Origin: Panagrolaimus kolymaensis
Taxonomy: Eukaryota > Nematoda > Chromadorea > Rhabditida > Panagrolaimidae
Assembly: GCA_028622995.1 (NCBI GenBank)
Contig: JAJQJQ010000112.1
Coordinates: 26,881-90,880, forward strand
DNA length: 64,000 nt
Direction of reading: 5' to 3'
Shown: positions 24,056 through 25,361 of the stretch, piece after piece
Layout of the letters: every line of letters begins with the position of its first letter
How positions within the stretch are numbered: the first letter of the stretch is position 1
The notes under the pieces: model-generated
What the model saw: the letters and a program-made list of their open reading frames with translations, nothing else
What the model was told of the DNA's origin: nothing
Database searches by the model: none
Translations under genes and position numbers: made by a program

Positions 24056-25361
24056 TTATTCTTCTTGAAACTTTTCATAATATCGAAGGGTTTCAGATGG
24101 TGGATAATCAATCGACCATTTAACCATAAAATCCGTTTCATGTTCAGCTTTAATTTTTTCCGTCCAAAAAAGATTATTTAAATCATCCATTGTTGCTCCA
24201 ATTGTGGGTAATTTATGGACATTATTGCTGTTGCTGATATCTTCTTCAAGGTTTGTTGGTGTTTTTGGCACTGGGGTTGGAATAATTTCGGGTGAAATAA
24301 CACGAACTCGAATTTTTTCATCCGTGGATTTTGGAATGCTTTCGTGAAGAGTAATCAAAATAGGTTCGGCTCTTTTCGTATTTTTGACAATAATTCGTTG
24401 CTCAGTGGTGGAATTCAAATTTTTGGTTATCATTCCTGTCTAAAATTTTTTTTGTTTATTATTACAACTTTAATTTTCTTTTTTACAGGATAAATGTCTT
24501 ATTTTTTTACATTTTTAGTTTGAAAGATTTTAGACTTTAAAAGTTTTCTTTCTTCTTACCTGAGTTTGGAATTTATGTTTTGGTTTATAAATAACTTTGA
24601 TAGCTTTATCCACACCCAAAGGAACATCAAATTTCTCTCCACACGAAGTAGATTTAAGATCGATTTTTGTTGACATTGAATTATTTAAATATACAGTAGC
24701 TGGGCCCGAAATCAGCGGATAGTCACTATCATTTATCACGGAAGTCATTAAAAAGACATTAGTATTTTTCTTTGGAACGCAATGATGATGAAGTTGAGCG
24801 GTAAGATTTTCAATTGTAATAGTTACTTTGTGATCTGTACTATCGGATGGAATAGTTTTCTTGGAAGGAATGGTAAAAGTTGTGGCGAGAACGTCCTCTT
24901 CTGCTTCGGTTGTATAATGTTTCATAGGTCCACCCGAACATGGAGCAGATTTGCGTGCAACTTTTGTAGCTAATTGTTTTCTTGGAGGATTTTTAGATCC
25001 GGGTTTTCTACCACGGTTTGAACGATCACGGTGTACACGATGATGATTATCGGAATCGCTGCTGCTATCAGATGATGATGGACGATAAAATTCAACCATG
25101 GTTGTGCCAATTTCAGGCAAATTTCCTCCCAATGCCGGTTGAGCAGTCGAAAGAGAAAGTTCCACATTATTCCAATCTTCTCCACTATCTTGACTTATTT
25201 TTCCATAATAACTTAAAATCATTTTATGTTGATCTTTTACACTTTTTACACGAATATCATATGCGGCTGACCAATTTGCGTCATTAACTTGATAAGTGAG
25301 ATTTAATTCGGCTTCCTTGATTTCTTTTTTAGTTTCATTTTCAATTTCGATTGAAATTATG
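24056..25361 (-). CDS. DUF4139 protein with histone H3-tail-like insert (5' partial)
   Basis: C-terminal part of a protein similar to Caenorhabditis F37C4.5 (DUF4139 domain; cellular role not established). Minus-strand exons: 25361-24560 and 24439-24056, joining ...KFQTQ to TGMITKN..., about 395 aa in this model. Family signatures: AELNLTYQVNDANWSAAYDI, ILSYYGKISQDSGEDWNNVE, ELSLSTAQPALGG near the start, and DFMVKWSIDYP at the end. Between them sits a Ser/Asp-rich then Arg-rich insert that contains [19 protein letters not shown] (24929-24985), nearly the H3 tail around K18-K27. Upstream, a strong acceptor precedes 25361 and a good donor sits at 25437 (AAATT/GTAAGT). The short exon this implies has in-frame stops, and no N-terminal DUF4140-like segment is recognisable in the next 2 kb. 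Either the 5' part is truncated or it lies behind a long intron. Confidence 0.8.
24929..24988 (-). other. Histone H3 tail mimic (about H3 residues 15-34)
   Basis: The encoded [20 protein letters not shown] compares with canonical H3 residues 15-34. PRKQLATK and ARKSAP are exact, Ala25 of H3 is Val, and the positions before GG differ. Equivalents of R17, K18, K23, R26, K27 and S28 are all present. The preceding GRKPGSKN resembles a GxK spacing but not H3 itself. It is in frame inside the DUF4139 protein, downstream of a Ser/Asp-rich segment. Recognition by histone-modifying enzymes or readers is an inference. Confidence 0.9.

Follow-up and report, generated by a model that had tools for sequence, protein, structure and literature searches.

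The window analyzed here is a 64,000-bp stretch of the Panagrolaimus kolymaensis genome (C111:26881-90880; 26.6% GC) within an 807-contig assembly of 265.8 Mb, the species having been published as a triploid HiFi assembly (PMC10374039). On its minus strand, a single open frame (24530-25375) holds a stretch resembling the tail of histone H3, set within a gene for a DUF4139 protein. The features of this gene, in window positions, are:

25378..27435, minus: region upstream of exon 2 that lacks DUF4140; homology to the C27 paralog ends at about 25377, in the former intron 1
24560..25361, minus: exon 2, with the start of DUF4139 and the insert; open and stop-free, acceptor AG at 25363-25362, donor GT at 24559-24558
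24911..25081, minus: loop insert (residues 93-149), Ser/Asp-rich, then basic RGRKPGSKN and the H3-like segment; predicted unstructured
24989..25015, minus: RGRKPGSKN, which is RGRKPGSKG in the C27 paralog
24941..24985, minus: H3-like core of 15 residues, H3 16-30 with A24V
24440..24559, minus: intron between exons 2 and 3, GT...AG, about 19% GC
24056..24439, minus: exon 3, the remainder of DUF4139 and the stop codon

When exons 2 and 3 are joined the frame stays open, and the 393 residues from the codon at 25357 match DUF4139 (PF13598, E = 1.1e-47, 162.9 bits against a cut-off of 31.8) and the MuiA family (TIGR02231, E = 8e-85, 285.5 bits against a cut-off of 112.6). Core residues of the domain are common to the paralogs. 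PF13598 is the only domain matched in the protein, with no reader domain. The TIGR02231 model is covered from position 189 to 523 of 524, its second half, and the DUF4140/coiled-coil N-terminal half of MuiA has no match within the 64-kb window. Homology between the window copy and the C27 paralog breaks off at about 25377, within the old intron 1. Downstream of the exon-2 acceptor, none of the first three AUGs is in frame; an in-frame AUG first occurs at codon 46 of the numbered protein (offset 139). The window copy is without exon 1 and without a credible start.

Elsewhere in the window we noted a 1065-residue open frame (13386-16583, minus) with many similar Cys-containing repeats by eye and no Pfam match over cut-off, P450-like frames recognized by eye (21132-23296, minus), and the end of a DUF1679/ecdysteroid kinase-like gene (35406-36017, plus).

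The insert resembles the H3 tail beyond chance

Minus-strand positions 24988-24929 encode 20 residues that include the H3-like stretch, whose 15-residue core (24985-24941) forms residues 125-139 of the window protein and equals H3 16-30 with a single change. The original prediction had described this in-frame stretch correctly and had called its one substitution A25V; numbered along H3 (A21 T22 K23 A24 A25 R26 K27), the substitution is A24V. The string ARKSAP is present in the segment. The alignment extends past the core, with 19 of 30 residues identical over H3 8-37, and its local score of 88 was reached by none of 20,000 shuffles (maximum 63). Exact words give a weaker control: the longest one common to the segment and H3 has 8 residues, against 7 in the best shuffle. 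A phmmer search of the segment against the PDB found H3 at E = 8e-6. In a PDB sequence search, the best 60 of 114 matches were all to H3. Together with a genome-wide pattern search (28 matches, none in its control; see below), these results bear out the claim that the likeness exceeds chance. No histone fold follows the tail; the window sequence resumes DUF4139 after GG. GC content in the insert is 43%, against 19% in the adjacent intron.

Two ways in which the segment could have proved illusory were considered. Exon 2 contains neither a GTRAG donor nor a TT(0-2 bases)YAG acceptor, and we dismissed splicing-out of the insert. The segment is unlikely to be an assembly artefact, since it is found again in a diverged allele (79-95% identity over the aligned pieces) and in a paralog.

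The segment lies in a variable loop of the DUF4139 domain

The insert was earlier placed in the middle of DUF4139 and called disordered-looking, and both points are supported. AlphaFold2, run on exon 2 with 58 sequences, gave a model of mean pLDDT 81.7 in which residues 77-150 have no secondary structure, block pLDDT falls to 47-52 over residues 101-140, and predicted strands at 62-70 and 151-154 flank the loop. The placement of the H3-like segment is predicted from this model to be flexible and accessible. A charge-hydropathy index also called the insert disordered, and is non-discriminating here because it called the folded stretch preceding the insert disordered too. A Foldseek search of the PDB with the exon 2 model returned no match at E up to 0.001; as the 60 PDB sequence matches listed were to H3 alone, neither search turned up a solved relative of the DUF4139 fold.

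The genome contains at least 37 matches to the DUF4139 profile, which we grouped into 22 loci. Matches to DUF4140 (at least 19 genome-wide) adjoin 19 of the 22, the exceptions being the loci on C111 (the window), C57 and C13; these counts are lower bounds, since in either search scoring is limited to the best candidates. We could read the loop at 19 of the 22 loci: four are H3-like, two (on C112 and C357, identical to each other) resemble the heptad repeats of the RNA polymerase II C-terminal domain (CTD), and 13 are of other low-complexity kinds. Bacterial relatives have a readable loop at the same place in 79 of 80 cases, with 36-91 residues between aligned flanks, and KQLA, ARKS and LATK are absent from all 79. 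Given the varied loops of siblings and bacteria and the unstructured model, the loop appears, throughout the DUF4139 family, to be a site that is exposed and tolerates change.

The CTD-like loop belongs to a minus-strand gene (L030, C112:58500-65000), reads YPQSPTYTPTSPSGRAASPTYSTMSPSYGARSPTYGHTPTPS, and is identical in L004 on C357. Of its 46 residues, 22 stand in register with YSPTSPS, and one of 50,000 shuffles did as well. Its best PDB match is RPB1 at 6e-5, with no single stretch of that match passing E 10. Its 7-residue periodicity, with any period allowed, was matched by 596 of 50,000 shuffles, and hmmscan against Pfam found no CTD family in it up to E 10.

PRKQLATK occurs in H3 genes and four DUF4139 loci

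Scanned as a degenerate DNA pattern over 266 Mb, PRKQLATK gave 28 matches, and the reversed control gave none. All 28 places were read: 24 are H3 genes and four are DUF4139 loci, on C111 (the window), C57, C13 and C27, so that genome-wide the pattern is confined to H3 genes and 4 of 22 DUF4139 loci. The C57 copy is identical to the window copy over the 7.3 kb compared, the C13 copy is a diverged allele of it, and the C27 copy is a paralog. With the protein sequence of the C27 loop (C27:1249657-1249869) as query, 27 places were listed, comprising the four DUF4139 loci, 21 of the H3 gene places and two weak matches. One of the weak matches, when read, proved to be a true H3 variant gene rather than a DUF4139 copy (L068, C2:10393300-10394600); it is diverged, and its K27 region is altered.

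The C27 paralog is the stronger case of H3 likeness. Its tail matches H3 8-39 at 25 of 32 residues without a gap and scores 122, a value reached by none of 20,000 shuffles (maximum 57), and its loop finds H3 in the PDB at 5e-11. The mismatches are K9Q, K14P, A15P, A24P, K27P, K36C and H39N, of which K36C may belong to the family's own loop end or mark the junction with it. Four of the seven mismatches fall on lysines, and on four of seven lysines, an excess with p = 0.026 in a post hoc test.

All four copies keep P16-K23, A25, R26, S28-P30, G33 and G34. K18 and K23 are kept in every copy, and the equivalents of K9 and K14 are missing in C27. K27 is present in the window, C57 and C13 copies and is a proline in C27; K27 chemistry is therefore not common to the copies, and its modification cannot be a function conserved between them.

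Variation was also seen among the H3 genes themselves. In three of the 24, an intron directly follows K23. In six (L036, L037, L048, L049, L054 and L055), GRKNAPVNGG replaces ARKSAPATGG, a variant around K27 with A25G, S28N and other changes.

Selection and decay of the H3-like copies

In a tree of 13 loci, where the window copy is represented by its identical copy L017, the window and C13 copies group at 100 and C27 joins them at UFBoot 83, giving moderate support to a shared clade of the three. The CTD-like L030 is placed with a support of only 50. Divergence between the window and C27 copies amounts to dS 0.83 and dN 0.12. The window and C13 copies differ at 41 synonymous and 26 nonsynonymous positions in 330 codons (dS 0.215, dN 0.035, dN/dS 0.16; binomial p = 7e-12). 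Within the 57 loop codons there are 7 synonymous and 2 nonsynonymous differences (p = 8.5e-4, on nine differences only), and the 28 tail codons have 4 and 0, numbers too small for a test of their own. For the C27 tail against a single H3 gene, the values are dS 1.05 and dN 0.24. The peptide has been kept with synonymous sites near saturation relative to an H3 gene, and window against C13 gives a dN/dS of 0.16; selection has thus held the sequence. A long, selected imitation of the H3 tail is well supported by these comparisons.

The original prediction had also raised insertion of H3 coding sequence as the source. The ungapped 32-residue match in C27 favors this; a clear nucleotide trace is missing. 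In a comparison of two loops with 5 of the 24 H3 genes, codon identity was close to what codon usage by itself would give, a negative outcome for origin from an H3 gene; the lowest of ten p values was 0.043, uncorrected (window against L044). Moreover, serine 10 is encoded by AGC in C27 and by TCN in 21 of 21 H3 genes with S10 in view (of 24). With codon identity near chance and the S10 codon of another class, any descent from H3 is one without a clear nucleotide trace.

All four H3-like copies are damaged. The DUF4140 exon is missing in C111, C57 and C13. The C13 copy (L023) lacks the equivalent of window 25172-25674 through a deletion, and its loop is interrupted by about 288 bp whose inverted ends read AGGGGTGAGCGGAA, next to a repeated CCGCGATC; this insertion contains stops and resembles a hAT-type MITE with an 8-base target duplication. 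In the C27 copy, exon 1 contains a stop and exon 2 is frameshifted. Both window exons are open. Exon 1 is absent from both the window and the C13 copy and was most simply lost before they split; the low dN/dS would then mean selection on the shortened protein. Two independent losses in the window and C13 lineages are possible, because the C13 deletion spans the junction.

A possibly captured H3 tail as a candidate ligand

The reading we favor, tentatively and at somewhat less than an even chance, is that H3 imitation arose by a single capture, that the loop displays it as a ligand for a protein binding H3 16-30, and that the lineage later decayed. A piece of H3 coding sequence would have entered the gene from which the window and C27 copies descend, and the DUF4139 protein would show the captured tail in its variable, unfolded loop, which has a beta strand on either side. 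There it could act as a docking site for, or compete for, a protein that normally holds H3 16-30. Contacts would centre on P16-K23, R26 and S28-P30, residues common to the four copies, and not on K27; the grip itself would be on R17-K23, R26 and P30. UTX and JMJD3 are described as contacting H3 R26 and P30 (PMC13068663), and both residues are kept in four of four copies. For such a partner, the C27 loop could only be a non-substrate ligand, because of its proline at 27, and the window version could be modified. Decay would have followed: the window copy and its alleles are without exon 1, and the copies on C27 and C13 are broken. Relation to H3 by descent is the most likely origin of the insert; that the loop works as a ligand we infer, and a function at the present day is not well supported.

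A possible, if rather doubtful, alternative is that the segment is a fossil: an H3 fragment, or a once-useful mimic, left in a tolerant loop of a decaying gene lineage, its likeness irrelevant now or always. The damage in all four copies (exon loss, insertion/deletion, stop, frameshift) fits such a fate, as does the hypervariability of the loop across the family, and pairs involving the H3-like clade have dN/dS values of 0.13-0.20 (leaving out the fast L030), above the 0.04-0.11 of intact siblings. Even so, these values lie far below 1 for window against C13, most simply with both already lacking exon 1 before they split; the peptide survived near-saturation of synonymous sites; and both window exons remain open.

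It is unlikely that the loop is instead a basic nucleic-acid-binding or nuclear-import patch (RGRKPGSK with RKQLATK.AR), in which charge and motif type were selected and H3 likeness is mere ancestry. RGRKPGSK is identical in the window and C27 copies, the loop's second half is basic and follows the acidic Ser/Asp stretch, and RGRKPGSKN resembles an AT-hook. However, a Pfam search of the loop gave no AT_hook match up to E 10, the uncharged Q19, L20, A21, T22, A25, S28, A29, P30, G33 and G34 are also kept, and the charged K9, K14 and K27 are absent in C27.

Least probable, and quite improbable in itself, is convergence on the H3 tail by selection for binding with no capture of H3 DNA: the lack of a clear excess of codon identity to H3 genes, the C27 serine 10 codon of another class and the CTD-like loop of L030, from which one might suppose that family loops can evolve toward tails, would suit it, yet 25 of 32 ungapped identities is long and exact capture followed by synonymous saturation accounts for the same data. 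Capture with synonymous saturation under protein constraint and convergence both fit, and both would need selection on the peptide; capture is preferred because the ungapped match is so long. Extending the captured-ligand reading to the family, the DUF4139 loops of this lineage might form a display site for the H3 tail in one branch and for Pol II CTD heptads in another, recruiting or titrating the machinery that reads these tails, a broader proposal that we regard as improbable.

Relation to known histone mimics and DUF4139 proteins

Known histone mimics are generally short, about 4-7 residues. G9a, SNAIL1 and influenza NS1 (cited in PMC5663869) and SARS-CoV-2 ORF8, whose ARKS has been put forward as an H3 mimic and disputed (PMC10833455), are likewise non-histone proteins with a stretch like the H3 tail. 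These proteins, and BAZ2B too, imitate shorter stretches than the 15 residues with one change found here at the sequence level, or the 32 with seven in C27. BAZ2B offers another parallel, a histone-mimicking interdomain linker (PMC5663869) that is likewise a disordered stretch imitating H3 within a protein; that linker is an in-cis competitor at a PHD reader of BAZ2B itself, whereas the DUF4139 protein matched PF13598 only. Compared with H3 itself, the copies resemble residues 8-39 (C27) or 16-30 (window) and lack the histone fold and the H3 N-terminus; we would not expect them to enter nucleosomes. We found no nematode or long H3-tail mimic among the titles and abstract openings listed in searches of open-access literature.

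To our knowledge, no biochemical role has been described for DUF4139 proteins. The DUF4139/MuiA family (TIGR02231), where C. elegans F37C4.5 is placed, shares the domain and the position of the loop with the window copy, which lacks DUF4140. F37C4.5 is reported as a putative NMAD-1 binder found by mass spectrometry, which NMAD-1 pulled down in bacteria and which by its authors' statement received no further validation (PMC6638966), and has been studied as a MUT-16-associated protein, whose fluorescence in germ cells did not obviously exceed background (PMC7255803). By analogy, these data hint at nuclear or silencing partners and are no proof for P. kolymaensis.

If functional, the segment would be an unusually long H3-tail mimic in an animal's own genome rather than a pathogen's, within a loop where selection can apparently place one tail or another. 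It would also show that part of the H3 tail (16-23, R26 and S28-P30) is sufficient for a partner that does not need lysine 27. Antibodies to marks on H3 K18, K23 or K27 could cross-react with such a protein in P. kolymaensis.

Surroundings of the C27 paralog

Homeology between the C27 and L030 loci was considered and is unsupported, the compared flanks being without a match. Adjoining the C27 paralog, C27:1250649-1282572 contains dispersed units of about 2 kb on both strands, which also occur in C73, C112, C263 and C24.
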